In this document: piece by piece, positions 978 to 28,231 of the stretch
Layout: each line of letters starts with the position of its first letter
Numbering within the stretch: the stretch's first letter is position 1
Program-made: the position numbers and the translations under genes
Origin: a virus
Direction: 5' to 3' (one strand)
Virus record (IMG/VR): IMGVR_UViG_3300038962_000081
Location: 1-28,703 of that record
DNA length: 28,703 nucleotides
Notes under the pieces: model-generated
Told to the model about the DNA's origin: nothing
What the model saw: the letters and a program-made list of their open reading frames with translations, nothing else
Database searches by the model: none

Positions 978-1477
978 ACAAATACCTGACTGAGAACTAT
1001 GATAAGCTAAAAGATATGGCTTACAATATAGCAGGTGAAAAAGGAAAAGATGATTTATTGAGTTTTGTAATTGAAGAATTATACAAATGTGACCAAGACA
1101 GAATTGTAGAAATAATAGAAAAAAAGAAAATGATCTTTTATATTGTCCGTGTTATGATAAATCAATACCACTCTAAAACAAGCAGATACTATTACAAATA
1201 CAATAAATATTACGAATACCATACCACAACCACAATCGAGAGTTTGACGGCAGATAGTGTTGATTATACAATTAAGGATAAAGAGCTTGTTGAAGAACGA
1301 TTAGAATGGATTGAAGAAAAATTAAAAGATTGTTATTGGTTTGATTCGCAGGTATTCAATATATATTATATGGAAAACCATTCGCTTAATAGCATGGCTA
1401 AGGCAACAGGAATCAATCGTAACACCCTGTTTAAAGCAATTAGTAATGTAAAAAAGTATTTAAAAAATGAGAGATAA
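971..1477 (+). CDS. Sigma-70-like (region 4) HTH protein
   Basis: A 168-residue protein arranged like a small ECF-type sigma factor. An N-terminal helical part (about 1-75, with AYNIAGEKGKDDLLSFVIEE resembling sigma region 2) is joined by a Tyr/Lys-rich linker to a C-terminal helix-turn-helix at about 125-165. There, LNSMAKATGINRNTLFKAIS fits region 4. Many Bacteroidota phages encode such a protein, usually annotated as an RNA polymerase sigma factor. If active, it would direct host RNA polymerase to phage promoters, and the four bipartite motifs at 5730, 14234, 15267 and 17705 are obvious candidate targets. It might instead be a simple DNA-binding regulator. Confidence 0.65.
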   Translation: MLNKYLTENYDKLKDMAYNIAGEKGKDDLLSFVIEELYKCDQDRIVEIIEKKKMIFYIVRVMINQYHSKTSRYYYKYNKYYEYHTTTTIESLTADSVDYTIKDKELVEERLEWIEEKLKDCYWFDSQVFNIYYMENHSLNSMAKATGINRNTLFKAISNVKKYLKNER

Positions 1478-2416: not shown

Positions 2417-2704
2417 ATGCAATTCTTCAATTATGAGGAACAGGATTTTATACCTTGCGAAATGTGTGGAGCAAGAGCTGTTGATGTCCACCATTTAGAA
2501 AAAAGGAATAAGACAAAAAACGACTTTATTGAAAATCTAATTGGGGTTTGTAGATCGTGTCACATAAAGGCAGAAAATGATGGAATGTTCAATATGTTCT
2601 GTAGAATAAAACACTTGGAGAATGTCTGTGTTCAAGTTTATAGTTTAATTGAATTAAATAAAAGATTAAAAAAATATGCAAATAAAAAAGATAAAAATAA
2701 ATAA
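2417..2704 (+). CDS. HNH endonuclease family protein
   Basis: Counting from the ATG at 2417, the 95-residue protein shows CEMCG (Cys14, Cys17), DVHHLEKRNKT (His25-His26) and NLIGVCRSCH (Asn40, Cys45, Cys48, His49). This is a classical zinc-stabilised HNH / His-Me finger core. The frame is open further upstream to a TTG at 2393, but that would overlap the zinc-ribbon gene, so the ATG is preferred. It could be a terminase-associated HNH needed for packaging or a free nuclease; it lies about 1.5 kb before the small terminase. It overlaps ParB by 29 nt. Confidence 0.85.
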   Translation: MQFFNYEEQDFIPCEMCGARAVDVHHLEKRNKTKNDFIENLIGVCRSCHIKAENDGMFNMFCRIKHLENVCVQVYSLIELNKRLKKYANKKDKNK

Positions 2705-3182
2705 ATTAAAACCTGCTTTTTATAATCCAAGACAAATAAGCACAAAGCAATACAAAGATTTAAAAGAGTCAATAGAGAGGTTTGGCTTGGTTGATCCTAT
2801 TATCGTAAACAAAGATTTTACCGTGATTGGCGGTCATCAAAGATTAAAGATATGTAAGGAATTAAGATATACAGAAATAGATTGTGTAGTATTAGACTTA
2901 ACAAAAGAACAAGAAAAAGAATTAAATATTAGGCTTAATAAAAGTGGTGGAGATTGGGATATGGATATTCTAGCTAATGAATTTGAAATTGAAGAACTAA
3001 AAGATTGGGGTTTTAAAGAAATAGAGTTAGGATTAAATATAGATAAAATTCAAGATGATTTATCTGATAGCATAGAACTTCAATACAAAATAGAAGTAGA
3101 AGTTAATTCAGAAAAAGAACAAGAAAAATTATATAATCAATTAACTAAAGATGGATATGTATGCCGAATTTTAACATTGTAA
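2676..3182 (+). CDS. ParB/Srx-fold domain protein
   Basis: A 168-residue protein with the ParB N-terminal fold: KLKPAFYNPRQI near residues 10-21, a helix LKESIERFGLVDPIIV at about 29-44, and the signature VIGGHQRLKI at about 50-59 (GGH-x-R box). The C-terminal half lacks the DNA-binding HTH of chromosomal ParB. Phage ParB-like domains are often paired with DNA methylases or other DNA modifiers; here the partner is the ABC-ATPase/GNAT fusion, which overlaps by 22 nt. The domain call is strong. A CTPase or nuclease activity is inferred from family knowledge only. Confidence 0.85.
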   Translation: MQIKKIKINKLKPAFYNPRQISTKQYKDLKESIERFGLVDPIIVNKDFTVIGGHQRLKICKELRYTEIDCVVLDLTKEQEKELNIRLNKSGGDWDMDILANEFEIEELKDWGFKEIELGLNIDKIQDDLSDSIELQYKIEVEVNSEKEQEKLYNQLTKDGYVCRILTL

Positions 3183-4237
3183 AAGAAGTAAAACCAAAAA
3201 AGAGTTTTAGGGTAAGTTCTGTTATTGGTAAATTTGACTTACAAACTGAACATATAAAAGAACATTTTGAGGGAAGTATAGATTTAGATAATAATTGGCA
3301 AATAGGTATAATTGTTGGTAGTAGTGGTAGTGGAAAAACAACAATAGCAAAAGAATTATTTCCTGATAGTTATATAACAGATTTTAAATATAATGCTGAA
3401 ACTATTTTAGATGATATGCCTAAAAATAAAAGTGTTGATGAAATTACAAGAACTTTTAATAGTGTAGGTTTTTCTTCTCCACCAAGTTGGTTAAAACCTT
3501 ATTCAGTATTATCTAATGGACAAAAAATGCGGGTTGATTTAGCTAATGGATTATTGCAAGATAATAAATTAATGGTATTTGATGAATTTACAAGTGTAGT
3601 AGATAGAAATGTAGCACAGATTGGAAGTTATGCAGTTCAAAAGGCAATTAGAAAAACAAAAAGAAAATTTATTGCTGTTAGTTGTCATAATGATATAGTC
3701 GATTGGCTATTGCCCGATTGGATATTTAATACTGATTCTATGACCTTTCAAAAACTTGAAGGGCAAAAAAAAAATAGACCAAAAATTAAATTTGAAATAT
3801 ACAATACAAGAGATAAAACAATTTGGAAAATGTTTGCTAAACATCACTATTTAAGCCATACACATAACAATGCTGCAAATGTATATGTAGCTTTTGTTAA
3901 TAAACAATTAGCAGGGTTTATTAGTATATTACATTTTCCACACCCAAAAGTTAAAAACATAAAAAGAGTTCACCGAGTTGTGGTTATGCCTGATTTTCAA
4001 GGAATTGGAATTGGTGTTAGATTGTTAGAATACATAGGTAAAAAATATATTAATAATAAATTTAGATATAGAATTACAACTTCAGCACCAAGTTTAATAA
4101 ATTACTTTAAAAAGAGTTTGCAATGGAAATGTTGTTCTTTTGGAAGAAAAAAGAATCACGGTGGAACATTGAAGGTGGGAAAGTTTGGAAGCGAAAATAG
4201 AATAACCACAAGTTGGGAGTATAAATTAACGGTTTAA
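3161..4237 (+). CDS. ABC-type ATPase fused to GNAT/Mom-like acyltransferase
   Basis: The N-terminal half is an ABC ATPase: Walker A GSSGSGKTT at residues 53-61, signature LSNGQ at 117-121, Walker B KLMVFDE at 136-142 and an H-loop His at 176. It has no membrane domain, so it is not a transporter. The C-terminal half (about 212-335) is a GNAT-type acyltransferase with HHYLSH near 228-233, RVHRVVVMPDFQGIGIGVRL near 269-288 and SAPSLINYFKKS downstream. This resembles phage Mom-like transferases, a family that modifies adenine in DNA. A run of ten A (3765-3774) lies between the two domains. With ParB next door, a DNA-modification role is the best hypothesis, but acylation of a protein or small molecule is not excluded. 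Confidence 0.75.
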   Translation: MPNFNIVKEVKPKKSFRVSSVIGKFDLQTEHIKEHFEGSIDLDNNWQIGIIVGSSGSGKTTIAKELFPDSYITDFKYNAETILDDMPKNKSVDEITRTFNSVGFSSPPSWLKPYSVLSNGQKMRVDLANGLLQDNKLMVFDEFTSVVDRNVAQIGSYAVQKAIRKTKRKFIAVSCHNDIVDWLLPDWIFNTDSMTFQKLEGQKKNRPKIKFEIYNTRDKTIWKMFAKHHYLSHTHNNAANVYVAFVNKQLAGFISILHFPHPKVKNIKRVHRVVVMPDFQGIGIGVRLLEYIGKKYINNKFRYRITTSAPSLINYFKKSLQWKCCSFGRKKNHGGTLKVGKFGSENRITTSWEYKLTV

Positions 4238-4588: not shown

Positions 4589-5729
4589 TGTAAAACAATC
4601 AACTAAGCGGATATGTGTTTTACAGGGTGGAACTAGAAGCGGAAAAACATATTCAATTCTATTAGCATTGATTGAGTTTGCATATAAGAATAAGGGCAAA
4701 GGATTGTATATTACAATAGCTAGAAAGACATTCCCAGCATTAAGGGGAACAGCTATGAGAGATTTCTTTGAAATACTAAAGAAAGAAAATTTATATGATG
4801 AAAGATTACACAATAAGTCAAGTGCCTTATATCACCTCTATGGTAACATTGTTGAATTTATAAGTGTTGATCAACCACAAAGGGTGCGAGGTCGTAAAAG
4901 GTCTATTCTGTTTTTAAATGAATGCAATGAATTTGGATTTGAAGATTACACACAGTTAGCATTAAGAACTACATATAAGATAATTATTGACTTTAATCCA
5001 TCAGAAGAGTATCATTGGCTATACACACACATTATTGATGCTGACAGAGAAGATGTTGATTTTTATGTTTCAACATACAAAGACAATCCATTTCTGGAAC
5101 AAGCTACAATAGCAGAGATTGAAAGACTGCAAGAAGTTGATGAGAATTTATGGCGGGTTTTTGGTCAAGGGGAGCGGGGGGTCGCAACCGAAACTATATT
5201 CCCGTCATTTAATATAATTGATAGTATTCCAGATAATGCAAAACAGATTGCATTGGGATTAGATTTTGGATTCTCAGCTGATCCAACATCATTAGTAAAA
5301 GTATATAAACACGACCTTGATTTATATATTGATGAATTACTTTATGAAAGAGGTTTAACCAATCAAGACATTGCACACAAGATTAAGGAATTAGGAATTG
5401 ACAGAAGCATAGAAATTTATGCAGATAGTGCTGAGCCAAAGAGTATAGAAGAAATCTTTAGAATGGGCGGTATTAATATCAAACCCGCTAAAAAAGGAGC
5501 TGATTCTATTCGTATTGGAATTGATGTTCTAAAAAGGCACAAGCTAAATATCACAAAAAGAAGTGTTAATGCTATCAAAGAATTTAGAAATTATAAATGG
5601 ATTAAGAATAAGAATAACGAAATAACAAACAAACCAATAGATGCTTTTAACCATGCAATAGATTCTGTTCGTTATGTTGCATTAAATAAATTAATGGTGT
5701 CTTATTCAGGTAAGTATTATATATCGTAA
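4560..5729 (+). CDS. terL: Large terminase subunit (Terminase_3-like)
   Basis: A packaging ATPase-nuclease of 389 residues, typical for the PBSX/SPP1-like family. Walker A is LQGGTRSGKT at about 21-30, Walker B RSILFLNE in the first half. The nuclease domain shows LGLDFGFSADPTS (first Asp), IYADSAEP (second acid) and DAFNHAIDSVRY (last Asp) near the C-terminus. ATG codons at 4554, 4557 and 4560 are equivalent candidates; 4560 is chosen to keep overlap with the small subunit low. An upstream frame extension to 4530 adds a His-rich leader that does not look conserved. Confidence 0.95.
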   Translation: MTKQAKPYYDVKQSTKRICVLQGGTRSGKTYSILLALIEFAYKNKGKGLYITIARKTFPALRGTAMRDFFEILKKENLYDERLHNKSSALYHLYGNIVEFISVDQPQRVRGRKRSILFLNECNEFGFEDYTQLALRTTYKIIIDFNPSEEYHWLYTHIIDADREDVDFYVSTYKDNPFLEQATIAEIERLQEVDENLWRVFGQGERGVATETIFPSFNIIDSIPDNAKQIALGLDFGFSADPTSLVKVYKHDLDLYIDELLYERGLTNQDIAHKIKELGIDRSIEIYADSAEPKSIEEIFRMGGINIKPAKKGADSIRIGIDVLKRHKLNITKRSVNAIKEFRNYKWIKNKNNEITNKPIDAFNHAIDSVRYVALNKLMVSYSGKYYIS

Positions 5730-5758
5730 AAACAAATAGTAACAATTTATATTTATAA
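5730..5758 (+). promoter_or_regulatory. Bipartite late-promoter candidate, copy 1
   Basis: AAACA at 5730-5734 is followed by 11 nt and then TTTATATTTATAA at 5746-5758, three bases before the tail-chaperone ATG at 5762. The same two boxes with identical 11-nt spacing recur at 14234, 15267 and 17705. It fills the 32-nt gap after the large terminase gene. The spacing does not match the host TTG-N17-23-TAnnTTTG promoter. Confidence 0.6.
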
Positions 5759-5761
5759 GTA

Positions 5762-6343
5762 ATGAAAGAGATTAAATTAACAATCCCTGACAGGTGGTCT
5801 GATATAACAATAGAAACATATCAGAAATATATAGAAATACAAGAAAGCAAAGGAAGTGAGAAAAACAAGGTTATAAAGAGTTTAGCCCTATTGTGTAGCA
5901 CAACACCCTTTGTGGTAAAGAAAATGGCTTACAAGGACTTATTAGAGATAATGGGTATAATTAAAAAGATGATTGACACAGAGCCGAAGGAAGAGGAATT
6001 TAGAAAGACATTTATGTTTAAGAATGAGGAATATGGATTCGTTCCAAATCTTTCAAGTATTAGCACGGGAGAATATATTGATCTTGAAACATATTGCAAA
6101 GAACCAATTAAAAACCTACATAATATAATGAGTATATTATACAGGAAGGTGACATTTAAAAGAAATAAAAGATATACTATTGAAACATATAATCCTCAAG
6201 AATTTAAAGAGGAATTATTTAAGGAGTGTCCAATGGATATAGCATTAAGTAGCTTAGGTTTTTTTTTGACTTTAGGCGAAGCATTGGCGAGGACTTCGCA
6301 CAGCTTTTTACAACAACAGGAGAAGAAAGTGCAAAGGGTGTAA
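5762..6343 (+). CDS. Tail assembly chaperone, zero-frame product (gpG-like)
   Basis: A 193-residue protein starting KEIKLTIPDRWSDITIETYQ, an N-terminus I associate with the first tail-chaperone gene of Bacteroidota phages. It is helical and charged without membrane segments. A run of nine T at 6259-6267 near its 3' end creates a -1 slippery heptamer (T TTT TTG in frame). The -1 frame stays open to 6507, giving a longer second product, as in the lambda G/GT pair. It is the first gene after promoter-like copy 1 and leads the tail module. The role is inferred from position and frameshift architecture. Confidence 0.7.
   Translation: MKEIKLTIPDRWSDITIETYQKYIEIQESKGSEKNKVIKSLALLCSTTPFVVKKMAYKDLLEIMGIIKKMIDTEPKEEEFRKTFMFKNEEYGFVPNLSSISTGEYIDLETYCKEPIKNLHNIMSILYRKVTFKRNKRYTIETYNPQEFKEELFKECPMDIALSSLGFFLTLGEALARTSHSFLQQQEKKVQRV
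6259..6268 (+). promoter_or_regulatory. Candidate -1 ribosomal frameshift site
   Basis: The nine-T run is followed by G. In frame the codons read GGT TTT TTT TTG, so T TTT TTG fits the X XXY YYZ slippery rule. A -1 slip continues with GAC at 6268 into an open frame ending at 6507. I did not model a downstream stimulatory structure. Confidence 0.55.
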
Positions 6344-6507
6344 GTATGCAAAGCAAGTGGGGTTGGTATAATGTTTTATACAGTTTATCAAACTCAATAC
6401 TTGACATTGGGAAAATAACTAGAATACCGATAAGAGAAGTGTTGACATATTTAGCATACACTCAAGACTATAACAATAAACAAAGAAACAATTATGATAA
6501 CTTTTAG
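6268..6507 (+). CDS. Tail assembly chaperone, -1 frame extension (gpT-like)
   Basis: In the -1 frame, 79 codons follow the slippery site and end at TAG 6505-6507. The fused product would be about 248 residues. The extension carries KWGWYNVLYSL and then REVLTYLAYTQDYN, a pattern I have seen in the second chaperone reading frame of Bacteroidota phages. It covers the otherwise empty 150-nt gap between the zero-frame stop and the next gene. An ATG at 6346, two bases after the zero-frame stop, could alternatively start a separate 53-residue protein; the sequence cannot exclude this. Confidence 0.65.
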   Translation, partial: DFRRSIGEDFAQLFTTTGEESAKGVSMQSKWGWYNVLYSLSNSILDIGKITRIPIREVLTYLAYTQDYNNKQRNNYDNF

Positions 6508-6988
6508 GAATGTAGTTGAATATTTAGAAACGATAGCTGAAAAACATTTTAACATAAATAGCTTTCATTCAGGAATGCTTGATGAGGTCGATTTAAACAA
6601 ACTTAATGCAAGTGACTACATTATATTATATGCAGAACCAGGAACGGTAGTTGTTGACAAAGGGGTTATGACTTATTCGTTTTCCATATATGTTATGGAT
6701 TTGATTAATGATCAAGAATTGGGTTCATCACCAAACAACCAAAGAACCACAAGGGTTGACACTTATTCTCAAACACTACAAATCATGCAAGATGTTATTA
6801 ATGAGTTTCACCAAAACTTATATTCTACATCTTGGGTAAATGATGATGTTGTTTTAAGTCTGCCTATCAATGCAGAGCCGTTTACAGCTAGATTTGATAA
6901 TACATTAACGGGCTGGTCAGCAACAATTAATGTTCAAGTTCCAAACCAAAACAATCTTTGTATTGTTCCAATAACACCCAATAGCTAA
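6494..6988 (+). CDS. Conserved tail-region protein, possible tail terminator, 164 aa
   Basis: The protein contains FNINSFHSGMLDEVDLNKLN near residues 19-38 and later EPFTARFDNTLTGWSATINV. These blocks are familiar from a conserved Bacteroidota-phage family placed between the chaperone and gp10-like genes. Its length and predicted alternating beta structure fit tail-terminator or head-completion proteins, which is the inferred role. It starts 14 nt inside the -1 frame chaperone extension, and its last base is the first base of the next gene (TAATG). Confidence 0.6.
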   Translation: MITFRNVVEYLETIAEKHFNINSFHSGMLDEVDLNKLNASDYIILYAEPGTVVVDKGVMTYSFSIYVMDLINDQELGSSPNNQRTTRVDTYSQTLQIMQDVINEFHQNLYSTSWVNDDVVLSLPINAEPFTARFDNTLTGWSATINVQVPNQNNLCIVPITPNS

Positions 6989-7527
6989 TGGAATTTAAAA
7001 ACACCATACAAGCAATGCAGAAATTTGGCGGCAATGTTGTCAAGGAGGGAAGGTCTATATTAAAGAAAAAGAAAAAGACAACAAGTCGAAACACATTATA
7101 TAATGACTTTGACTATTTAGTTACAGCAACAAAAGATGAAGTAACATTAGAGTTTGAATTTGGGGGTGCAGAAGATTATTGGGTATTTGTTGACGAGGGT
7201 GTTCGTGGCGCAGGGGGTTTTAAAGGTAGCGGAAAAATGCGGGGACAAGGCAGTCCATTTAAATACTCAACTAAGATGCCGCCAAGACAACCATTGATTA
7301 ATTGGATAAAAAACAAACCAATAAAAGGCAGAGATAAAAAAGGGAGATTTATCACAAACAATAGTTTAGGGTTTTTAATACAAAGAGCAATATATCAAAG
7401 AGGATTAACAAGGACACAATTTTTTAGCAAACCATTTACGCAACAATTAAATAAACAAACAGAAAAAATAACAGAAGCGTTTGCAGATGACTTAATGTTA
7501 TCATTAGACAAACAATTAAAAAATTAA
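6988..7527 (+). CDS. HK97 gp10-like neck/tail-completion protein, 179 aa
   Basis: The protein has a basic N-terminal helix, a central YWVFVDEGVRGAG near residues 64-76, then KMPPRQPLINWIKNKP and LIQRAIYQRGLTRTQFF with a C-terminal helix. This layout (FVDEG, then MPPR, then a final helical segment) is that of gp10-like/neck-type proteins joining head and tail. It follows the previous gene with a 1-nt stop-start overlap and sits 3 nt before the next. The fold assignment rests on motif memory, not a search. Confidence 0.65.
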   Translation: MEFKNTIQAMQKFGGNVVKEGRSILKKKKKTTSRNTLYNDFDYLVTATKDEVTLEFEFGGAEDYWVFVDEGVRGAGGFKGSGKMRGQGSPFKYSTKMPPRQPLINWIKNKPIKGRDKKGRFITNNSLGFLIQRAIYQRGLTRTQFFSKPFTQQLNKQTEKITEAFADDLMLSLDKQLKN

Positions 7528-7530
7528 AAT

Positions 7531-9033
7531 ATGGCTTTAGGAAGTATCACATTAGAGCAAAGACCTGTAGCGTCATCAGACAAAGTGCCTGTAATAACAA
7601 ATTGGACACCAATCGTTGGCTATATGGTTTTGCAAGATGACATTAGTGGATTATTTTATTTTAGATTAATCATGGAGGTTAGATTAGATGATGGCTCAGG
7701 AACATTGTTAGCAAAAATAAAACAACGAAGAAACGGTTATGGCGATGATGTTACAAACAATAGAGCAAGAGCATTTTTTGATTTAAGAGATATTGTTAAT
7801 TCGCAAGTAGTAGACACTGTATTTGACCAAAACCAAACGGGCATTCCTTTTGATTCAATACATACCATTGGACTAAATGTCCCCGCTAAACCATTTTCTG
7901 TAAATGGGGATAATAGAGAAGGAACAACACAAATCCAAACAATATATGTAAAAGCATATCAACAATATAGCGAATCTGCAACAGCAATTCCAGAAGAAGA
8001 AACAGGAACATCTGTTAATCATACATTGGTTTATATGGCTGCATCATTACCATTGCTAACGCCTAGAAGTGTGGTTGCCGCAGGAAGTGTAAATAGCACA
8101 TATTTACAGGGAGCTGCATTTAACAAATATCAAACATCTGATAATAACGATCAATTTTTAAGTGACTTGGAAACAGATGCTGGAGATCATAAGATAACAG
8201 GATATATTAACTATGTTCAATGGAATGACACAACAAATGTTGGCGACTATCACACAGTCGCATTTTTAAATGATACTGCTAAATTTGATAGCGATCTTTT
8301 CCATATGGCTATTCGCTATTATGACAATTCAGGCGCATCTTTGGGGACTGTTGAATACATTGCAAATATAGAGGATAATGGTGGTTGGGAACCAGATGGA
8401 ACAGAAGGAACAACAGAAGACAAGCACAGATTGTTATATTTTGGGTGTGGGCCAGGTAATTTAGAAGCACAAACAGACGAAACAGACGCACGACCTTCTG
8501 ATGCAGCTTTTGATGGTTGGGCGTATTACACAATACAGGGATATAATTCTGCAAAATCAATAGCTAGAACTGCATTATATTATTTTATAAAACAAGACGG
8601 AAGTTGCAAAGGGTTTAAGGTTAGACGGTTAGGTTGGAGAAATAGTGTTGGTGGATATGATTATTTTAATTTCAAAGCAAAATCCACTCAAACAGTAGAT
8701 GTAGAACGAAACACATATAACACATTGACGGGAAGATTTAATGCTTCTAAGTGGTATTATAATGATACTATGAGGGGGAAACAAACAAGACAAACAACGG
8801 CAACATTAAAAGAAACATTAAACACAGAATGGCTAACAGAACCACAAGCAAATTTAATAGAAAAATTAATAATGTCAACAGATGTTTATGTAATACAAAA
8901 TCCTGACTCTGAGTATACAGAACCCGTTATTGTTACTGATAGCTCATTAATTAGAAAAACAGTTGCGAATGATAAACTGATTCAGTATACAATAAAGATA
9001 GAATATTCAAATCCATTAAATACCAATAGCTAA
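7531..9033 (+). CDS. Tail structural protein, 500 aa
   Basis: A 500-residue, beta-rich, Thr/Asn-rich protein without signal peptide. The first 150 residues include a segment ending in RARAFFDLRDIVNSQVVDTV, which I associate with a conserved structural protein found just upstream of the large tail-tip protein in Bacteroidota phages. Its last base is shared with the ATG of the 1144-residue gene. It probably belongs to the tail or baseplate, but I cannot say whether it is a sheath, hub or fibre-base component. Confidence 0.6.
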   Translation: MALGSITLEQRPVASSDKVPVITNWTPIVGYMVLQDDISGLFYFRLIMEVRLDDGSGTLLAKIKQRRNGYGDDVTNNRARAFFDLRDIVNSQVVDTVFDQNQTGIPFDSIHTIGLNVPAKPFSVNGDNREGTTQIQTIYVKAYQQYSESATAIPEEETGTSVNHTLVYMAASLPLLTPRSVVAAGSVNSTYLQGAAFNKYQTSDNNDQFLSDLETDAGDHKITGYINYVQWNDTTNVGDYHTVAFLNDTAKFDSDLFHMAIRYYDNSGASLGTVEYIANIEDNGGWEPDGTEGTTEDKHRLLYFGCGPGNLEAQTDETDARPSDAAFDGWAYYTIQGYNSAKSIARTALYYFIKQDGSCKGFKVRRLGWRNSVGGYDYFNFKAKSTQTVDVERNTYNTLTGRFNASKWYYNDTMRGKQTRQTTATLKETLNTEWLTEPQANLIEKLIMSTDVYVIQNPDSEYTEPVIVTDSSLIRKTVANDKLIQYTIKIEYSNPLNTNS

Positions 9034-12000
9034 TGAAAATTAGATTAGTAGCTTATAGATTAGCAACAACCTCTGCAACAACATATTCCACTTATCAACT
9101 TGATTTGCAGGAAGAACCAAACATCTCTTTAAATTTTCAGTTTAGCGATATTAAAGAACCTGAAACGAGAAAAGCAAGTTATAGTCAAACATTTAAATTA
9201 CCATTTACAGACACAAATAACACATTCTTTGAGCAATGGTATAATGTGAATGCTTCTACTTTAGTATATACTACAAAAGAAAAATTTAATGCTGTTTTAT
9301 ATGTTGGAACTGTCCCACAATTTGAAGGATTTTTACAGCTTAAAAGAGTATATCAAAAAGCACAATATTACGAGGTGGTATTGATGTCCAATACATCTGA
9401 CCTATTTTCTGTAATTGGAGAAAAAAAGTTGCAAGATGTATTTAAAAATGATAACGGGACATATAGCACTGAGCTTAACCATACTTACAATGAAACACAA
9501 TTAGTTAATTCTTGGAATGGTAGTAGTAGTGCCTTTGTAAATGCAGCAGGAACAGCGTTAAGAGATACTGATGTTAATGTTCAAAAGGTCATGTATCCGA
9601 TGTCTGTAACACAGCCCGAATTTTACTTTGAGTCAGGAAGCTCAAAATTCCTTGATATGTCACAAGCAGACATAAACAACACATCAATCTATCCAAGTGG
9701 TGCTGTAGATGCACAAGCATATATGGTTTCTCTGCTTCAATTTAGACCTGCTATTCAAATCAAAACACTATTTCAATTAATTTTTGCAAGAGCGGGATTC
9801 AGATACACCTCTTCATTTATTGATGGTGCATATTTTGGTAAAATCTTTATGACAACAGGAAATGATTTAGGGGCTTCTACATTACCCACGACATCATCTT
9901 CAACAGATTTTTCAGGTAGTGCTAGCGCATATAATGTGGGTAACTTTGGATCTTTTACCGGGCCTTTTCCATTTGATTGTCAAGATACACCTGCAACAAT
10001 AATAAAAGCGGGAACAACAGACTTTGATCCTCAAAATGCGTGGAACACAACAGGTCATTATTTTACAAAAACACACCCAACCCAACTATCTATGAATGTT
10101 CAGCACAGGGTATATGCTAAAAATTTAGAGAGTTGCGAAGATGCTGACGCTGTATTGGATATTTGGTTAGAAGGATTTAATACAACAACAAACACCGACA
10201 CGGGCGATATATGGGGATTGCAAGAAAATCTTGCTGTAACTATGCCTACAATCCAAAACATACCGGAGACAACAAACTTTTATCATACTTTGGATTTAAC
10301 CAATATTCCTCTGGATCAACCTGTTAGAATTAAAGTTAGAGTCAAAAATATAAAACAATCATTCGCTAGTCCCCAAATAACAATTGGTTATAATGGAGGA
10401 TTTGGCCCTTCTGGAATTGATGAAAGTTTTATTTCAGTTAGTTGGGCGGACTATAGTTTAGGAATATATGGTTCAACTATAAATGTTCCTATGTGTATTG
10501 ATGACAGTATTACACAAAAAGCATTTTTAAAAGACATCATTCAAAGGTTTAATTTAATAATATTGTCTGATCCCGAAGATGCTACAAACTTAATTATAGA
10601 ACCATATAATGATTATCTAGCAACAAGCACCATTAAGGATTGGACTCATAAGCTAGACACATCAAAAGAAGTTATTGTAAAAGATACAACATCACTACAA
10701 AAAAAGACAATTAAATTCACGGACTTAGAAGATGACGATTTACACAATAAATCATTTAAACAAGATTATCCAAAAGTAAATGTTTATGGACATTATGATG
10801 GTGAAATTACTCAAAATGAATTTGCAAAAGGAGAATTAAAAAATGAAGCTATATTTAGTCCATATATAAATGACAGGGTTTTCCCAAGCGAGGATCAATG
10901 GAATCCTTCAGAGGTTGCAAATATGACTGTGCAATATGAGTTTAGCTATAATGAAGAAGAAATTGCAACAACAGATTCCACAACTAAACCGAAGTTGTTT
11001 TGGTATAATGGTTCACCAACAACTGTATTATCTCAATCAGGCAATACGGTTACATATTATATGCACAGGCAACCTGTGTCAGGACTAGCTATTAATGCTT
11101 ATAGTTTTACAACATACCCTGTTTGTAGCCCTTTTGACATCACACCATCAAGTAATGAATATACCCTTTCACCAACAAACAAAAGTTTGTATTGGAATGC
11201 AAATCCCCCATTAAGCGCATCAACAATAACCGTGTTTAACTATACAGGCTTTTTTGGGACTTGGTTTGATAACGCTCTTTATGGTTTATATTGGCAATCT
11301 TATCTAAACAACATCTATAGTGATGAAGCGAGGATTATGGAAGCATATATAAACCTAAATGAAGTAGATATATTCGACTTTAAATTCAATGACGAGATAT
11401 TTATAAAAGACACATATTGGAGGGTTTTAACAATTTCAAATTATCAAGTAGGTGGGGAAGTATCAACTAAAGTTACCTTAATAAAGGTTATTGATAGTAT
11501 AAATAATTGTCCTGGTTGTGATTATGTTATTGGATATAATTCAGAAGGAGGAAACCTGCAGGGGGGAATATATTATTTATGGTGTCCTGAAGGTGAACCT
11601 GGTTGTTCGCCACAAACAACAGCACCATTTTTAGGTATTTACACACACCCAGAATGTTGCTATTGTATGGGAGGAACGCCCTGGTTATTCGTCACCGCTT
11701 ATGAAGCTCAAGGCATTTTTCCTTGTGAAGCTAATGATGGAAGTTTACCAATAAGCCAACAAAACACATCTGCCCTAAATAGTTTCTTGGGTAGCGGGAC
11801 ATTAAAAAATGCTGTTTATAAAACGATTGCAGGAAAAAATTTACCTCTAACAACGGGAATGGACACAACGAAATATAGCAGGGGGATATTACCATATTAT
11901 GGTGATGATGTTGTTATTAAATACAAGAATAAAAGAAATTCTACACCTCAAATAAAAGGTGAATCTCATAGACTAGTATTAACAGGAAACACGGAGGGAA

Positions 12001-12467
12001 ATACGAGGGGATATGCTTATCCCGAAGGGACATTAAATAGTAAACCTTTAAAAATACCAGGTAACACTAATATGATTATTAGAGTAAAAGGTATTGCTAC
12101 TGTTATAGGCGGAACAAGTTCAACATATCCTGTTGGAACAACTGAAGCATTTGCTTATTACACAGCATTTAAAAACACCGTAGATGGGATAACACAATTA
12201 GGGACAGTAGGTGGGGACGGAGAATTTGCATTAAGAGAAGGGGCAAACCCAACCACTTGCACCTTATACATAGATATTAACAATGGAATTTTACGATTTG
12301 GTTTAGATGATAGTCAAACAGATACAAGAAGAGTTTGGTCGTTGAGTGTAGATTTAGACATAAACAGCATATTCAATATGAATTTTTCGTATGATGCAAA
12401 TTGGGCGTTATTTCAAAATGGAGATTATATACTATTTCAAGATACACAATTTTTAATATGGAATTAA
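9033..12467 (+). CDS. Large tail-tip / baseplate-like protein, 1144 aa
   Basis: The largest gene of the genome. The N-terminus contains a block (DIKEPETRKASYSQTFKLPF near residues 39-58) typical of a large Bacteroidota-phage tail protein family in which beta domains precede variable C-terminal regions. A Cys-rich insertion lies around residues 825-910 (CPGCDY, then GCSPQ, then ECCYCMGG), likely a disulfide or metal knot. The C-terminal part after about 980 looks like a beta-sandwich. It lies between a tail structural protein and the tape measure, so a tail-tip, host-recognition role is likely. Confidence 0.65.
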   Translation: MKIRLVAYRLATTSATTYSTYQLDLQEEPNISLNFQFSDIKEPETRKASYSQTFKLPFTDTNNTFFEQWYNVNASTLVYTTKEKFNAVLYVGTVPQFEGFLQLKRVYQKAQYYEVVLMSNTSDLFSVIGEKKLQDVFKNDNGTYSTELNHTYNETQLVNSWNGSSSAFVNAAGTALRDTDVNVQKVMYPMSVTQPEFYFESGSSKFLDMSQADINNTSIYPSGAVDAQAYMVSLLQFRPAIQIKTLFQLIFARAGFRYTSSFIDGAYFGKIFMTTGNDLGASTLPTTSSSTDFSGSASAYNVGNFGSFTGPFPFDCQDTPATIIKAGTTDFDPQNAWNTTGHYFTKTHPTQLSMNVQHRVYAKNLESCEDADAVLDIWLEGFNTTTNTDTGDIWGLQENLAVTMPTIQNIPETTNFYHTLDLTNIPLDQPVRIKVRVKNIKQSFASPQITIGYNGGFGPSGIDESFISVSWADYSLGIYGSTINVPMCIDDSITQKAFLKDIIQRFNLIILSDPEDATNLIIEPYNDYLATSTIKDWTHKLDTSKEVIVKDTTSLQKKTIKFTDLEDDDLHNKSFKQDYPKVNVYGHYDGEITQNEFAKGELKNEAIFSPYINDRVFPSEDQWNPSEVANMTVQYEFSYNEEEIATTDSTTKPKLFWYNGSPTTVLSQSGNTVTYYMHRQPVSGLAINAYSFTTYPVCSPFDITPSSNEYTLSPTNKSLYWNANPPLSASTITVFNYTGFFGTWFDNALYGLYWQSYLNNIYSDEARIMEAYINLNEVDIFDFKFNDEIFIKDTYWRVLTISNYQVGGEVSTKVTLIKVIDSINNCPGCDYVIGYNSEGGNLQGGIYYLWCPEGEPGCSPQTTAPFLGIYTHPECCYCMGGTPWLFVTAYEAQGIFPCEANDGSLPISQQNTSALNSFLGSGTLKNAVYKTIAGKNLPLTTGMDTTKYSRGILPYYGDDVVIKYKNKRNSTPQIKGESHRLVLTGNTEGNTRGYAYPEGTLNSKPLKIPGNTNMIIRVKGIATVIGGTSSTYPVGTTEAFAYYTAFKNTVDGITQLGTVGGDGEFALREGANPTTCTLYIDINNGILRFGLDDSQTDTRRVWSLSVDLDINSIFNMNFSYDANWALFQNGDYILFQDTQFLIWN

Positions 12468-12631
12468 AAAGATACATAGAAAGCACAGCGAAATTAATAA
12501 CACCGACAATTGACCACTTACAATTAGTTGAGCATAAAAACAAAGATTTAGATTTTGCTTATGGTATGCAAGAATATCATACAAGCTTTAAAAGAATGAT
12601 AAAACAAATAATAAGATTATTATGGCGATAG
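12458..12631 (+). CDS. Small protein before the tape measure, 57 aa
   Basis: The ATG at 12458 overlaps the end of the tail-tip gene by 10 nt, and the stop overlaps the tape-measure start by 10 nt. The protein is helical and ends in a basic, hydrophobic tail (RMIKQIIRLLWR). An upstream extension to 12401 would lie wholly inside the tail-tip gene and is rejected. No family was recognised; packing on both sides is the main support. Confidence 0.6.
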   Translation: MELKRYIESTAKLITPTIDHLQLVEHKNKDLDFAYGMQEYHTSFKRMIKQIIRLLWR

Positions 12632-14235
12632 AACATACAGTTAAATTAAATGTAGATGCAAAAGACGGCATTCAACAAGTAGATAAGCTAAAAAAGGGTG
12701 TAAAAGACACATCATCAGCAGCTAAAGGAAGTGAGGGGTCATTTAGCAAAATGAAAGCAGGGGTTCAGGGCTTGGGTGTTGCATTTAAGGCATTAGGAAT
12801 TGGCTTAGTAGTAGCTGCCCTTATGAAATTAAAAGATATATTTAGTGGTAACATAGAAACAGCTAGAAGATTTGAAAGAATATCAGCCCAATTAAGTGCT
12901 GCTTTTGATGTTATAAGAGATAGGGCAGAAAATTTTATCAAATCACTAATAGCATTAAAAAACCCATTCAAGGCATTTAAAGAAGCATTTACAGGAACAA
13001 CTGCAGAGATAAAAGAAGAGGTCAAAGCTATTGATACATTAACAGTAGCATTACAAAAAGTTAGAGATGAAGAAAGAGATATGCTATTGGTCAGAGCAAA
13101 AGCAAATAAAATAATTGCTGAATCTAGATTATTAGCTGAAGATGATAATCTTAGTATGCAAGAACGATTAGATGCATTAAAAGCGGCGGTTGCAGAAGAA
13201 AAAAGAGTAGCAGACATAGAAGTTGCTACACAAGCTAAAAAGGTAGAAGCAATGCAAGAAATCATTGATTTAGGAAAATCAAGTGAAGAAGATATGCAAA
13301 ATCTAGCGGCAGAAAGAGCTAGATTAATAGAATTACAAACAGCATCAGTATTAAAGCAAAAAAGAGTAGCGGCAGAAATAGGGACTTTTACAAATCAAAT
13401 TGCTAAAGAACAAGAAAGAGTTGAAAAAGAAAGATTAGAAAGAATTGATTTATTGACAAAAGCTAAAGAATTTCAGTTGGAAATAACCAAAGAAATGTCA
13501 AACAAAGAAATAGCCGAATTAATAAAATCAGCAGAAGCAAAAAATAAATTAGATGATGCACAAAAGCTAAAAGATGACGAAACTAAACAAAAGTCATTAG
13601 ATGAATTGAGACAATCATTAATGACTAAAGAAGAATTAGAGCTACATGCAGCACAAGATAAATACGAAAAATTATTAGCAATAGCTAATAAATATGGACA
13701 AGACACAACTGTGTTAACAGAGCAATATAATCAACAAGTCCAAGATATTGAGAACAAATATAACGAAGAAGAATTGGCAAACCAAAAAGCAATAGAAGCA
13801 AATAAAACAGCTATTGTTCTAAATGCTATGAGCAATCTAGCAACAATCGCGGGTCAAGAATCAAGGGCTGGTAAAGCATTAGCTGTAGGTCAAGCATTAA
13901 TTAATACTTATCAGGGTGTGACAAAAGCATTAGCATCAGGTTCTCCACCATGGAACTTTATACAAGCAGCAGCTGTTGGTGTAGCAGGTATGAAGAATGT
14001 TGCTAAAATTAAATCTACAAATCCTGAAAGCGGTGGGAATGATGATCCCCCAGATATTCCATCACCATCTCCAGAGCCTTCAGGTGTTGATGTTGGGGGT
14101 ATGTTACCAAACATGGAAACTATAATTCCAGAAGTAAATGGGGCAACACAACCTATACAAGCTTATGTTATTGAAAATGATATTTCTGATGCTCAAGCAT
14201 TACAAGAAGAACTAGATATACAATCCACATTATAA
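12622..14235 (+). CDS. Tape measure protein
   Basis: A 537-residue, mostly alpha-helical protein. It starts with a short beta-like segment and a Lys-rich helix, then a hydrophobic stretch (GLGVAFKALGIGLVVAALMK at about 51-70). Long Glu/Lys/Ala/Gln coiled coils follow from about 130 to 400. A second hydrophobic block (around 415-460) precedes a Pro-rich tail (PPDIPSPSPEPSG). Coiled coil plus hydrophobic segments in a tail module is the tape-measure pattern. At about 0.15 nm per residue the tail would be near 80 nm, i.e. a modest siphovirus tail (inference). Confidence 0.8.
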   Translation: MAIEHTVKLNVDAKDGIQQVDKLKKGVKDTSSAAKGSEGSFSKMKAGVQGLGVAFKALGIGLVVAALMKLKDIFSGNIETARRFERISAQLSAAFDVIRDRAENFIKSLIALKNPFKAFKEAFTGTTAEIKEEVKAIDTLTVALQKVRDEERDMLLVRAKANKIIAESRLLAEDDNLSMQERLDALKAAVAEEKRVADIEVATQAKKVEAMQEIIDLGKSSEEDMQNLAAERARLIELQTASVLKQKRVAAEIGTFTNQIAKEQERVEKERLERIDLLTKAKEFQLEITKEMSNKEIAELIKSAEAKNKLDDAQKLKDDETKQKSLDELRQSLMTKEELELHAAQDKYEKLLAIANKYGQDTTVLTEQYNQQVQDIENKYNEEELANQKAIEANKTAIVLNAMSNLATIAGQESRAGKALAVGQALINTYQGVTKALASGSPPWNFIQAAAVGVAGMKNVAKIKSTNPESGGNDDPPDIPSPSPEPSGVDVGGMLPNMETIIPEVNGATQPIQAYVIENDISDAQALQEELDIQSTL

Positions 14236-14262
14236 ACAAAATTAAGAACTTTATATTTATAA
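14234..14262 (+). promoter_or_regulatory. Bipartite late-promoter candidate, copy 2
   Basis: AAACA at 14234-14238, 11 nt, then TTTATATTTATAA at 14250-14262, five bases before the protease ATG at 14268. The upstream box begins within the stop codon of the tape measure gene. Spacing is identical to the other three copies. Confidence 0.6.
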
Positions 14263-14267
14263 ATGTT

Positions 14268-15260
14268 ATGGCTAAAAAGAAAAAACTAATAGAACTAATA
14301 ATAGACGAAACAGCAGAACACTTTGGGGTTGATGCTATTTCAGTTGTTAAATTTCCTGCGATAGAAGAAAATTTCGTTTTTTTCAACAATGATTTTTTAT
14401 CACTTGCTAAAGTAGATGAAGAACAAAAACAATTAATTGGTGCGGTGCTTATTCCTGATAAGAAAATTCCTAGACTCGATAAGGAAACAAATGAAGAGTA
14501 TGAGGTTTTCTTTACTAAAGAAACTATAAAACAAGCACAGAAGCTATTTATGTCAAATCTAAGGAACAATAATCACACACTTGAACACAAAGAACCAATT
14601 CAGGGACTAACTGTTGTAGAGTCATGGATTAAAGAAAACAAGAAACATGACAAATCTAATATGTATGGCTTTAATATGCCTGTTGGAACTTGGTTTGTGC
14701 AAGTAAGTGCAGAAAACAATCCTGACATTTGGGAAAAAATCAAGAACAAAGAAGTTCGCGGTTTTTCGATAGAGGGATATTTTACGGACAAATTAATTGA
14801 AGCATCTAGAGAAAAAGATATATTGGACGAGGTATGTGAAGATTGTCCAGATGAGGTTATGATGGGAAAAATCAAAGATGTTATTTTACAAAATGAATTA
14901 AATCCTGTTGGTAGCTTAGACGGTGAACCACTATTTAGAACAAAAGAAGAAGCTGACATATATGCTGAAATGTTCAAGGGCTGTTCAGGTAGTCATACAC
15001 ATAGTGTTGATGGTGTTAAGCTGTATATGCCCTGTGTAGATCATTCTTCAGCTACAATGCGAGAAGAACATGCAGAAACAGGAAGAAAGAAAAGAAAGAG
15101 AAAATACAAAATGCTTGAATATGTTGCTTATGCAAAAAGAAAAGCTATGTTAAAGTATTCGTGGGACGAGTGCATGAGGGATCAAATGAAAGAATACGGA
15201 AATAAAGAAACAGCTGCTAAGGTCTGTGCGGCTATCAAAAACAAGACGGTCAGACGATAA
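14268..15260 (+). CDS. XkdF-like prohead serine protease
   Basis: A 330-residue protein with the XkdF-type head maturation protease domain at about 50-175. QLIGAVLIPDKKIPRL leads the fold, NNHTLEHKEP supplies a candidate catalytic His107, and EVRGFSIEGYF a candidate catalytic Ser167. A C-terminal module contains CSGSHTHSVDG and LYMPC (Cys239 to Cys256, with His243 and His245), possibly metal binding. It ends with a conserved-looking SWDECMRDQMKEYG segment. The gene follows promoter-like copy 2 and precedes scaffold and capsid genes, the expected place for a procapsid protease. Confidence 0.8.
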   Translation: MAKKKKLIELIIDETAEHFGVDAISVVKFPAIEENFVFFNNDFLSLAKVDEEQKQLIGAVLIPDKKIPRLDKETNEEYEVFFTKETIKQAQKLFMSNLRNNNHTLEHKEPIQGLTVVESWIKENKKHDKSNMYGFNMPVGTWFVQVSAENNPDIWEKIKNKEVRGFSIEGYFTDKLIEASREKDILDEVCEDCPDEVMMGKIKDVILQNELNPVGSLDGEPLFRTKEEADIYAEMFKGCSGSHTHSVDGVKLYMPCVDHSSATMREEHAETGRKKRKRKYKMLEYVAYAKRKAMLKYSWDECMRDQMKEYGNKETAAKVCAAIKNKTVRR

Positions 15261-15266
15261 AGAAAT

Positions 15267-15296
15267 AAACAGTTTTAATCCTTTTATATTTATTAA
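15267..15296 (+). promoter_or_regulatory. Bipartite late-promoter candidate, copy 3
   Basis: AAACA at 15267-15271, 11 nt, then TTTATATTTATTAA at 15283-15296, four bases before the scaffold ATG at 15301. The only difference from the other copies is a T for A after TTTATATTTAT. It would drive scaffold and major capsid genes. Confidence 0.6.
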
Positions 15297-15300
15297 TGTT

Positions 15301-15981
15301 ATGGGAACTCTAGAAAAAATTTTAAACATATTGAAAATGAAAAATGAACCTAAATCATATTCTGTAAAATTCTATGCAGAATTAAAACTTGACGATGGCC
15401 GTGTTATTGCTACAGAAGATGAGCAATTTGCTGTTGGATCAAAAGTATTTACAATTTCTGACGACGCGAATGCAGAGGCATTATCTGCAGGAACTTATAG
15501 TCTTGAAAATGGAGATAAAATAGTAATTGACGACACATCTAAGGTGTCACAAATGGGCGAAGTAGAGGTTGCTGAAGATGAAGAAATTGAAGCATCTACA
15601 GAAGAGTTAGCTGAAGAATCAGAAGCAGAAGAAACTGATTGGGCTAAAACTTTTGAGGAAATAAAAGATAGGGTTGCCGAACTAGAAAAAGCGGTTTTTG
15701 GTGAGAAAGCCGAAGAAGAAACTGAGGAATTATCTGAAGAAACTGAGGAATTATCTGAAGAAAAGAAAACTGAAATGAGTTCAGAAGATATTATTGGTGA
15801 ACTTATGTCAGAAGTTGAAGAGCTTAAGAGTAAAGTTGTTGAATTAAGTGGTGAACCTGCAGCGGAAGGTATAACATACAATCCTGAGGGGTCAAACTTT
15901 AATTTAACTACTGACTTGAGTGATATGTCAAAGATGTCGTCTGTAGAGAAGGCAGAATATATAATGAAAAAATATAATTAA
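15301..15981 (+). CDS. Probable capsid scaffolding protein
   Basis: A 226-residue, strongly acidic protein between protease and major capsid genes. It begins with a small beta domain (YSVKFYAELKLDDGRVIATE and after) and continues as a Glu-rich coiled coil (about 90-195) with a tandem EETEELS repeat. It ends with a basic helix (SSVEKAEYIMKKYN), typical of scaffolds that contact the capsid. ATG 15301 is preferred over an upstream start at 15226 that would run through the protease gene and the promoter motif. The role is inferred from position and composition. Confidence 0.7.
   Translation: MGTLEKILNILKMKNEPKSYSVKFYAELKLDDGRVIATEDEQFAVGSKVFTISDDANAEALSAGTYSLENGDKIVIDDTSKVSQMGEVEVAEDEEIEASTEELAEESEAEETDWAKTFEEIKDRVAELEKAVFGEKAEEETEELSEETEELSEEKKTEMSSEDIIGELMSEVEELKSKVVELSGEPAAEGITYNPEGSNFNLTTDLSDMSKMSSVEKAEYIMKKYN
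15715..15756 (+). repeat. Two perfect 21-bp tandem repeats inside the scaffold gene
   Basis: The unit GAAGAAACTGAGGAATTATC plus T occurs at 15715-15735 and 15736-15756 and encodes EETEELS twice. It adds whole heptads to the predicted coiled coil and so keeps the frame and helix register. It looks like a recent local duplication. Confidence 0.9.
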
Positions 15982-16002
15982 AAAAATCTAAAATCAATTG
16001 AA

Positions 16003-16968
16003 ATGAAAAAAGAAATGTTAAACAAAAAATATGATTTTGGAACTGCTACAGTTTCTGGTGACGATTTTATCGGTAAACTTGCACTTCCTTATGTTGCTCC
16101 AGCGGTTAAAAGCCCTACCACTATTGCTAATGGGTTTGTAAGAGAACTTGATGGACTAACTAAATCAGCGGTTGTAAAGGTATTTACACCTGGAACTATG
16201 GTTGAATCGGCAAGTTGCGACTTTAATGATGGTGGTGGTGTTGTTGATATTACACAAAAAACACTTACAATCACAGATGTTCAGGTTAACCAAGAAGTAT
16301 GTCGGAAAACAATTTTTCCTACTTGGATGGCTCAAAATATGAAAAGAAATGACAACCTTCCTGTTGACTTTACTGATTTTCTTGTTCAAACTATTGCAGG
16401 AAAAGTTGGCGAAGAAATAGAAAGAGATATTTGGAGAGGAGATAGCGGGTTAGGAATTACAGGGTTCTGTTCTGCTGATGGTGGTGCTACTTATGGTGGT
16501 GCATTATCAGGATCGAATATAGAAACAATCGACACAATTACTAATTCAAATGTAGATGATGGCTTTGCAACTGTATATAATAGTGCTGTAGAAAATTGTG
16601 CAGGAATACTTACTGCTCCAGGACTTGGTTTTTATGTGAGCCAAAAAACTTACGGAATGTATTTACAATTCTTAACAGGTCTTGGTTCTTTTGGTGGTTT
16701 TAATAACCAAATGTCTAATCAAGGCATTAATGCTGCTACTTATTTGGGTATTCCAATTAGAGTATGTCCAGGACTGTATGACAATTCTATTATCCTTGCA
16801 GACAAAGAGAATCTAGTATATGGAACAAATGTAGGAACCGACTATACTGAAGCCCGTGTTATCCCGACCTATCTTTATGACGGGAGCGATAATGTAAGAA
16901 TTACAATGCACTTTGCATTTGGTGTGCAATGTGCTGTTCCTGGTGATGTTGTTTGGGGAAGAAACTAA
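16003..16968 (+). CDS. Major capsid protein (HK97-like)
   Basis: A 321-residue protein in the size range of HK97-fold capsid proteins without a fused scaffold. It follows the scaffold by 21 nt and ends in a strong terminator. Visible blocks include SPTTIANGFVRELDGLTKSA near residues 37-56, KVGEEIERDIWRGDSG near 131-146 and a C-terminal TMHFAFGVQCAVPGDVVWG. The assignment rests on these blocks, Gly/Thr-rich composition and position between scaffold and tail tube. No N-terminal delta domain is seen; the separate upstream gene would serve that role. Confidence 0.8.
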   Translation: MKKEMLNKKYDFGTATVSGDDFIGKLALPYVAPAVKSPTTIANGFVRELDGLTKSAVVKVFTPGTMVESASCDFNDGGGVVDITQKTLTITDVQVNQEVCRKTIFPTWMAQNMKRNDNLPVDFTDFLVQTIAGKVGEEIERDIWRGDSGLGITGFCSADGGATYGGALSGSNIETIDTITNSNVDDGFATVYNSAVENCAGILTAPGLGFYVSQKTYGMYLQFLTGLGSFGGFNNQMSNQGINAATYLGIPIRVCPGLYDNSIILADKENLVYGTNVGTDYTEARVIPTYLYDGSDNVRITMHFAFGVQCAVPGDVVWGRN

Positions 16969-16982
16969 TAGATACTTTAAAT

Positions 16983-17008
16983 GGGTGGTTGAAATATACC
17001 ACCCTTTT
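16983..17008 (+). terminator. Rho-independent terminator after the major capsid gene
   Basis: GGGTGGT at 16983-16989 pairs with ACCACCC at 16998-17004 around an 8-nt loop, followed by TTTT at 17005-17008. It lies 14 nt after the capsid stop. The T tract is short, so it may let some transcription continue to the tail-tube gene, which has no promoter motif of its own. Confidence 0.75.
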
Positions 17009-17032
17009 ATTAACTTTAAAAATTAAATAATT

Positions 17033-17647
17033 ATGAGCTGTAATTTAAGTGCCGGGAGATTGGTGGATTGTAAAGATCAGATTGGAGGATTGAAAACCCT
17101 CTTTTTCTGTGCTGACTATTCATCTAATATATCACAACACATGACAGTCAATGGAACAGATCCCTTGCAAATAGACACGGCAGGGTTTACAGGTTGGAGT
17201 GCTTACGGAACACCAACGGGTTCTACGATGACACTATATAAATATGATTTAAGACCGAATTTAAGTTCTTTAACTGTAACAACAAATGGCGATCCTGCGA
17301 CAGGAACATCTTTTTGGACTCAAGCATTGTCCGTAACATTGCAAAAAATAGATGTAGCCACAACAAATCAACTAAAATTAATTACATATAATAGAGTTCA
17401 GATTTTCGTTCAAGATAATAACGATAATGTGTTTTTGTTAGGGATTGATAATGGTTGCGATGTAACAGGCGGAAATATTGTTAGTGGCGCAGGAAAAGGC
17501 GATCTAACGGGGTATACTTTAGAATTTACTGCAGAGGAAAAGATACCTTTATATTCAATTAAAAAAACTAATGGAAGTGGAACGGACTATCCGTTTGACC
17601 AATTGGGTGATGCAGATAGTGAGTTAACAATAGTTTCAGGAACATAA
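17033..17647 (+). CDS. Probable major tail tube protein
   Basis: A 204-residue beta-rich protein starting MSCNLSAGRLVDCKDQIGGL, an N-terminus I associate with a conserved structural protein next to the capsid gene in Bacteroidota phages. It continues with FFCADYSS and a C-terminal half containing VTGGNIVSGAGKGDLTGYTL and FTAEEKIPLYS, a pattern common to tail-tube-like folds. It sits alone between two terminators, which fits a highly expressed structural gene. Tube identity is inferred; a head decoration protein is the alternative. Confidence 0.65.
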   Translation: MSCNLSAGRLVDCKDQIGGLKTLFFCADYSSNISQHMTVNGTDPLQIDTAGFTGWSAYGTPTGSTMTLYKYDLRPNLSSLTVTTNGDPATGTSFWTQALSVTLQKIDVATTNQLKLITYNRVQIFVQDNNDNVFLLGIDNGCDVTGGNIVSGAGKGDLTGYTLEFTAEEKIPLYSIKKTNGSGTDYPFDQLGDADSELTIVSGT

Positions 17648-17669
17648 TCGTTACTCTACTTAGCAAATT

Positions 17670-17694
17670 AAAGGGACTATATGTCCCTTTTTTT
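17670..17694 (+). terminator. Rho-independent terminator after the tail tube gene
   Basis: AAAGGGAC at 17670-17677 pairs perfectly with GTCCCTTT at 17683-17690 around a 5-nt loop, and seven T (17688-17694) follow. It is the strongest terminator in the window. Promoter-like copy 4 begins 11 nt later. Confidence 0.9.
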
Positions 17695-17704
17695 GTTTAA
17701 ATAA

Positions 17705-17733
17705 AAACAATTACATAACTTTTATATTTATAA
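17705..17733 (+). promoter_or_regulatory. Bipartite late-promoter candidate, copy 4
   Basis: AAACA at 17705-17709, 11 nt, then TTTATATTTATAA at 17721-17733, ten bases before the ATG at 17744. It lies directly after a strong terminator, where a new transcript must start if the downstream genes are to be expressed at full level. This is the best positional support for the motif being a promoter. Confidence 0.7.
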
Positions 17734-17743
17734 TAAAGATATT

Positions 17744-17920
17744 ATGGCTTGGAAAGTAAAAAAAGAATATGAAGGAAAGACTGTTCCCAATTGCTTGTCA
17801 CCGTTAAATGATTTAACACAACAACAAATTAAAAAATTAGGGGAAAGTGTTCGAAATTCTTATTTCATACAAGATAAACCCAAAAAGAAAAAGAAAGATG
17901 ATACAGTTGTTGCAGACTAA
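17744..17920 (+). CDS. Small Lys-rich protein, 58 aa
   Basis: The protein starts MAWKVKKEYEGKTVPNCLSP, has a Gln/Lys helix and ends in a run of lysines plus an acidic tail (PKKKKKDDTVVAD). Similar short proteins starting MAxKVKKEYEGK occur next to tail-tube genes in other Bacteroidota phages, as far as I recall, with no assigned function. It is the first gene after promoter-like copy 4 and overlaps the next gene by 23 nt. Confidence 0.7.
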   Translation: MAWKVKKEYEGKTVPNCLSPLNDLTQQQIKKLGESVRNSYFIQDKPKKKKKDDTVVAD

Positions 17921-28139: not shown

Positions 28140-28148
28140 TTAATGTTC

Positions 28149-28216: not shown

Positions 28217-28231
28217 ATTATATTTATATCT

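Follow-up and report, generated by a model that had tools for sequence, protein, structure and literature searches.

Organization of the window and its late-region motif

The DNA analysed in this work is the IMG/VR virus record IMGVR_UViG_3300038962_000081 at its full length of 28,703 nucleotides (nt), referred to hereafter as the window. Particular attention was devoted to two of its features: a two-part, promoter-like motif that stands ahead of structural genes, and an open reading frame (ORF) at 971-1477 whose product is a candidate sigma factor. The motif, AAACA-N11-TTTATATTTAT, is present in four exact copies at 5730, 14234, 15267 and 17705, the positions at which an earlier sequence-only reading had located it. 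All four are on the coding strand; over the whole window no exact copy was found on the opposite strand, nor any for the pattern read backwards.

The promoters, genes and terminators of this section are all on the + strand. Putative late promoter 1 (5730-5756) consists of a -35 element AAACA at 5730-5734, a spacer of 11 nt and an extended -10 element TTTATATTTAT at 5746-5756. It precedes the ATG at 5762 of the first gene of late unit 1 (5762-6343), which is tail-chaperone-like by position and matches phrog_32199, of unknown function. Putative promoter 2 (14234-14260; -35 at 14234-14238, -10 at 14250-14260) lies before the ATG at 14268 of a head maturation protease-like gene (14268-15260; phrog_24921 and phrog_3017). 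Putative promoter 3 (15267-15293; -35 at 15267-15271, -10 at 15283-15293) is followed by the ATG at 15301 of a scaffold-like gene (15301-15981; second half of phrog_24921) and, within the same unit, by the gene of a major capsid-like protein (16003-16968; phrog_1623, virion structural protein). A terminator-like hairpin is located after the capsid gene at 16983-17004. Putative promoter 4 (17705-17731; -35 at 17705-17709, -10 at 17721-17731) stands directly after an intrinsic terminator, which had been noted beforehand and was found at 17670-17690 as an 8-pair stem with a T tail; the ATG at 17744 opens the first gene of late unit 4 (17744-17920), encoding an unknown protein of 58 amino acids (aa). 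The gaps between the end of the motif and the ATG are 5, 7, 7 and 12 nt for copies 1 to 4, in agreement with the 3-10 nt first proposed once the trailing AA or TAA is counted.

When up to two mismatches are allowed, five motif matches are obtained in the window against 0.58 expected, a count reached in none of 100 dinucleotide shuffles. An unsupervised search upstream of ORFs for any 5-mer and 7-mer at fixed spacing returned the motif as the top pair, with four copies, shuffled sequences giving at most two. A match at 5307-5333, within the terminase gene and with two mismatches, was rejected as a motif copy; it is attributed to coding conservation because the synonymous positions there vary between relatives.

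Conservation of the motif in related phages

Relatives were gathered by terminase, portal and motif. With up to four mismatches allowed, the motif precedes the homologues of genes 1 to 4 in 73/80, 65/69, 57/57 and 55/58 distinct sequences, respectively. A relaxed pattern applied to 27 near-complete genomes yielded 125 forward and 0 reverse matches, with a spacing of 11 or 12 nt only, and the four homologous sites were occupied in 27/27, 23/25, 28/28 and 24/25 cases. The two apparent misses at the protease site carry versions with one or two mismatches. Absence of the motif from homologous positions had been named as an observation that would count against a promoter; relatives keep it at the four places.

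The mean pairwise identity is 0.83-0.99 in the -35 half and 0.92-1.00 in the -10 half, compared with 0.53-0.61 in the 11-nt spacer. Conservation of both halves around a drifting spacer is characteristic of two points of contact separated by unconstrained sequence. The -35 is AAACA in most copies; the scaffold sites of a second clade have GGAACA or GCAACA instead, followed by N11 and TTAATATATAT. Site 4 stays in place after the homologue of the gene at 17033 in this clade, though the downstream gene differs there. Among the relatives the motif lies within 4-19 nt of start codons, and the ATG of the first gene is 5 nt past it in 25 of the 28 cases counted. The relatedness of the genomes inflates such counts of conserved sites, and the strongest controls are the drifting spacer, the absence of reverse-strand matches and the 0/926 other gene starts described below. 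The collection scan also gave many single matches unaccompanied by family genes; these resemble chance hits to an AT-rich pattern and were discarded.

The product of ORF 971-1477

The ORF at 971-1477 (+ strand, 168 aa) had received no curated annotation, and its sole PHROG match is family 11138, of unknown function. Its homologues align over their full length. The AlphaFold model (mean predicted local distance difference test score, pLDDT, 82.8) has helices in its N-terminal domain, followed by a disordered linker and a C-terminal domain of four helices. Nearly all of the first 50 matches obtained with Foldseek in the PDB are sigma factors, mostly of the extracytoplasmic function (ECF) type, and the leading ones are the ECF sigmas SigL, SigK, SigE, AlgU, SigW and SigH. 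The C-terminal domain alone superposes on sigma4 with a TMt of 0.82 at 1.4 Å. A second model, built from a clade 41-46% identical, gave the same result, its top match being the sigma of the RNA-guided transcription complex 9n9q. Both models display the group 4 (ECF) architecture of sigma2, linker and sigma4 with no sigma3. Among predicted viral structures (BFVD), several uncultured phage proteins annotated Sigma70-ECF or RpoE are matched at E 1e-6 and below, and the GAP52 sigma appears among the weaker fold matches (E 0.047). Sequence profiles are less telling: none of the curated sigma-70 profiles of Pfam scores above its cut-off with the window protein, and in family members the UPF0122/YlxM helix-turn-helix (HTH) profile reaches a best E of 3e-5. 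A tblastn search with ORF 971 in 50,697 phage records gave no match at E 1, and no homologue was found in GTDB genomes. On the strength of the fold models, the product of ORF 971-1477 is most likely a highly diverged ECF-like sigma factor, predicted to bind core RNA polymerase and to direct promoter-specific initiation.

Proposed pairing of the sigma gene with the motif

The sigma gene and the motif are both present in 27/27 family genomes. Among records without the motif, G042 and G043 are also without the sigma gene, and G022 and G024 carry a homologue that is 31% identical. In order to obtain a sample in which the motif was unused in selection, 68 loci totalling 715 kb were fetched by the sigma protein alone, some of them on contigs already seen. 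In these loci, the motif is found upstream of the first late (tail-chaperone-like) gene in 29/29 cases and at 0/926 other gene starts, with 69 forward and 0 reverse matches over the 715 kb.

The geometry of the motif is that of an ECF-type promoter, with a GGAAC-like -35, a spacer of about 16-17 nt and a T-rich -10. For sigma-H, GGAACA is the consensus -35 and the optimum spacer is 17 nt (PMC6411747). The GGAACA form of the -35 in the second clade is identical to this consensus, and AAACA and the final TTTAT are 17 nt apart, which equals the sigma-H optimum. In the ECF register, the RNA start is predicted near motif position 34, within about 2 nt of the ATG for copies 1-3 and 6 nt before it for copy 4. 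Initiation within a few nt of the ATG would render the late mRNAs near-leaderless.

Two observations concern these same genes. Exact motif copies lie within the sigma gene of one subclade (L012, L020, L029, L059, L077, L088, L089 and L117), where they code for KQLKEFYIYTK; they came from a search with the motif as query and were left out of the counts. In the clade whose sigma is 31% identical, a TAAAACAACTTAAAGATG repeat (L281/L282 of G022; L283/L284 of G024) precedes three or four consecutive genes. This repeat was considered as a diverged late promoter and has no second half. Two G022 sites of the form TTTATATATAT-N4-ATG may be a diverged motif, their copies being too few to claim it.

A candidate fifth site upstream of the sigma gene

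The analysis adds two elements to the sequence-only reading, namely the ECF-like sigma gene at 971-1477 as the candidate recognising factor and a probable fifth site with its -10 at 850-860. The latter is a candidate intragenic promoter (833-860, + strand) composed of a weak -35 AGATG at 833-837, a spacer of 12 nt and a -10 ATTATATTTAT at 850-860, and lies within the gene at 696-977 that precedes the sigma gene. In 23 family genomes this -10 sequence recurs at a distance of 110-112 nt ahead of the sigma ORF; in three more, TATATATAT takes its place. The sequence preceding it by 12 nt in relatives is AAACA, AGACA, AAACG, AAATG or AGATA. The TTTATATTTAT-type copies at 851 and 28218 had been dismissed for want of a spaced AAACA; this does not hold for 851, where AAACA, AGACA or AAACG stands 12 nt upstream in many relatives. 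The 28218 copy lacks conservation among relatives.

The codons TAT-ATT-TAT at the fifth site are fixed in 97/97, 93/97 and 95/95 sequences, the background for ATT being 0.43, and most neighbouring synonymous codons vary. The site is nevertheless suggestive rather than proven, because other codons of the same gene are also fixed. If it is real, the sigma factor would activate its own gene in a positive feedback. In the same gene, codons exceeding their background are also observed at 738-775 (GAT at 756 and AAC at 762, both 97/97; TTG at 771 in 84%); they may reflect a further element, acting at the nucleotide level, ahead of the sigma gene.

Proposed mechanism and alternative explanations

The direct observations are the motif, the conservation of its positions and of its two halves, and a gene of sigma fold in the same genomes. 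The four motifs are, with high probability, promoters of the late (structural) units, most likely recognised by the ECF-like sigma of ORF 971-1477 together with host core RNA polymerase, as judged from sequence comparison and structural modelling. The proposal of a phage-specific late promoter giving near-leaderless mRNAs, already put forward in the sequence-only reading, is supported by comparative evidence. The sigma gene would be expressed together with the genes upstream of the terminase. Judging from fold and geometry, sigma4 would then bind AAACA as the -35, and the -10 melted by sigma2 would be the T-rich end of TTTATATTTAT. RNA is predicted to begin within a few nt of the ATG, yielding near-leaderless mRNAs. 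Sigma production may plausibly, if less securely, be amplified from the related site that lies 110-112 nt ahead of the sigma ORF. No RNA polymerase or known late activator was found among the phage proteins searched.

Several points weigh against this explanation. No PDB match of the ORF 971 model reaches E 0.001, the best being 9e-3, and the whole-chain template modelling (TM) score is low, about 0.3; both values are modest because the two domains are placed differently. Pfam Sigma70_r2 is obtained below threshold only (best E 0.02, in 6/43 family members). The link between sigma and motif consists of co-occurrence and geometry, and co-evolution is hinted at by G022 and G024 only, because almost all members share both by descent. 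The fifth promoter lies within coding DNA and its -35 in the window (AGATG) is poor. Finally, there is a resemblance between the -10 half and TAnnTTTG, the -7 element of the host.

This last resemblance opens the way to another explanation, which we consider unlikely: the motifs would be promoters of the host sigma, with TATATTTA as a variant form of the Bacteroidota -7 sequence TAnnTTTG and with AAACA bound by a MotA-like phage activator that replaces the -33 contact. TATATTTA indeed fits TAnnTTTG at every defined position except the G, this register likewise predicts near-leaderless starts, and the phage encodes a Cro/C1-type HTH protein at 27162-27374. However, the final G of the -7 element is nearly invariant in the promoters of F. 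johnsoniae (PMC6847099), and the motif has an A in essentially every copy. The strict spacing of 11-12 nt and the GGAACA form of the -35 are better explained by a sigma4 contact. As for the upstream half of the housekeeping promoter TTG-N17-23-TAnnTTTG, no TTG was seen by eye 17-23 nt upstream of the -7-like element in copy 1, the window copies alone being inspected. The TATATTT part is common to both. In F. johnsoniae, 87% of predicted leaders are longer than 10 nt.

A role in the mRNA rather than in transcription, as a translation-initiation or leader element, is very improbable. The short distance of 4-19 nt to start codons and the lack of Shine-Dalgarno signals in Bacteroidota would suit such an element, but the motif is found at the heads of four transcription units only and at none of the 926 other starts, one copy directly follows a terminator, and the distance to the ATG varies around a constant internal spacing. 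Moreover, the A at -3 favoured in the phylum (PMC6847099) is absent from three of the four window genes behind the motif. Least probable of all is that the motif serves some other DNA-binding purpose, such as packaging, module recombination or the binding of a repressor. Its location at module borders would suit such a role; the single orientation in all genomes (125 vs 0), the short fixed distance to the ATG, the bipartite -35/-10 geometry and the lack of dyad symmetry speak against it.

Comparison with known systems

Alternative sigmas for late genes are encoded by other phages, such as gp55 of T4 and gp28/gp34 of SPO1, with an AT-rich -10; T4 late promoters consist of a -10 box only. The proposed late sigma and its AT-rich -10 resemble these systems, from which they differ in protein family and in that no sliding-clamp coupling is known here.

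The closest functional parallel is provided by phiEco32 gp36 and its relatives, phage ECF sigmas responsible for the expression of middle and late genes (PMC4281155, PMC4331800) from an extended -10 promoter, tAATGTATAtA, without recognisable -35 (PMC4281155, PMC5333181). As proposed here, and as for gp36 (also SU10, 7-11 and GAP52), a phage ECF-type sigma steers host RNA polymerase to a few phage promoters ahead of structural genes. The present promoters differ by another motif and by a conserved -35 (AAACA/GGAACA) at 11-12 nt, and their sigma has no sequence homology detectable in the tblastn search described above. The genomes measure about 28 kb, that of SU10 77 kb, and the host phylum is probably different. 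A sigma without detectable sequence homology to those of known phage ECF systems and a bipartite promoter with a -35 would, on these comparisons, be the novel elements of the present system.

Bacterial ECF sigmas (SigH, SigL, SigE, SigW and the 9n9q sigma) share with ORF 971 the sigma2-linker-sigma4 arrangement and, as regards their promoters, a GGAACA-like -35 and a 17-nt spacer. They differ in that ORF 971 falls below the Pfam cut-off, in that the -10 is here TTTAT-like and embedded in the longer conserved TTTATATTTAT, and in that no anti-sigma or membrane signalling partner of ORF 971 was seen, the former being a difference from phiEco32 as well.

Little has been mapped of how Bacteroidota phages transcribe their late genes, and no matching paper was found in the open literature searched. 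The present analysis matches a specific proposed sigma to specific promoters whose starts are predicted to a few nt. It also gives a label to a protein family that had none, with PHROG 11138 as the nearest family, and the sigma and its promoters might serve as an orthogonal pair in Bacteroidota genetics. On a broader generalization our judgement is evenly balanced: an unnamed and widespread family of small phages with probable Bacteroidota hosts may use a self-amplifying late switch, combining a diverged ECF-like sigma, true bipartite promoters, a promoter of the sigma gene hidden in the preceding gene and leaderless or near-leaderless structural mRNAs.

Genome, host and other features

The window is a complete phage record whose ends are identical, bases 1-55 being repeated at 28649-28703, so that the genome is probably circular or circularly permuted, with a length of about 28,648 bp. 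The GC content of the whole record is 32%. The terminase relatives include many phages of Bacteroides, Parabacteroides and Flavobacterium, among other hosts, and a Bacteroidota host is therefore likely. The phage is small and uncultivated, and its family has hundreds of environmental members.

A number of minor features were recorded outside the system described above. A run of nine T at 6258-6270, near the end of the tail-chaperone-like gene, may be a frameshift site of the kind found in the tail chaperones of other siphophages. The region 28141-28231, located 5' of a replication-like gene at 28232, contains an inverted repeat (e.g. GCCTGTG...CACAGGC) that flanks a T-rich loop and is kept in many relatives. 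The TTG-N21-TATATTTA sequence of the window overlaps this repeat; the site at 28218 was rejected as a conserved host-type early promoter, this sequence being mostly not kept in relatives. Finally, an ABC-type ATPase half and a GNAT-like half are joined in one protein at 3161-4237 (phrog_11143), and this fusion adjoins a ParB-like protein encoded at 2676-3182.

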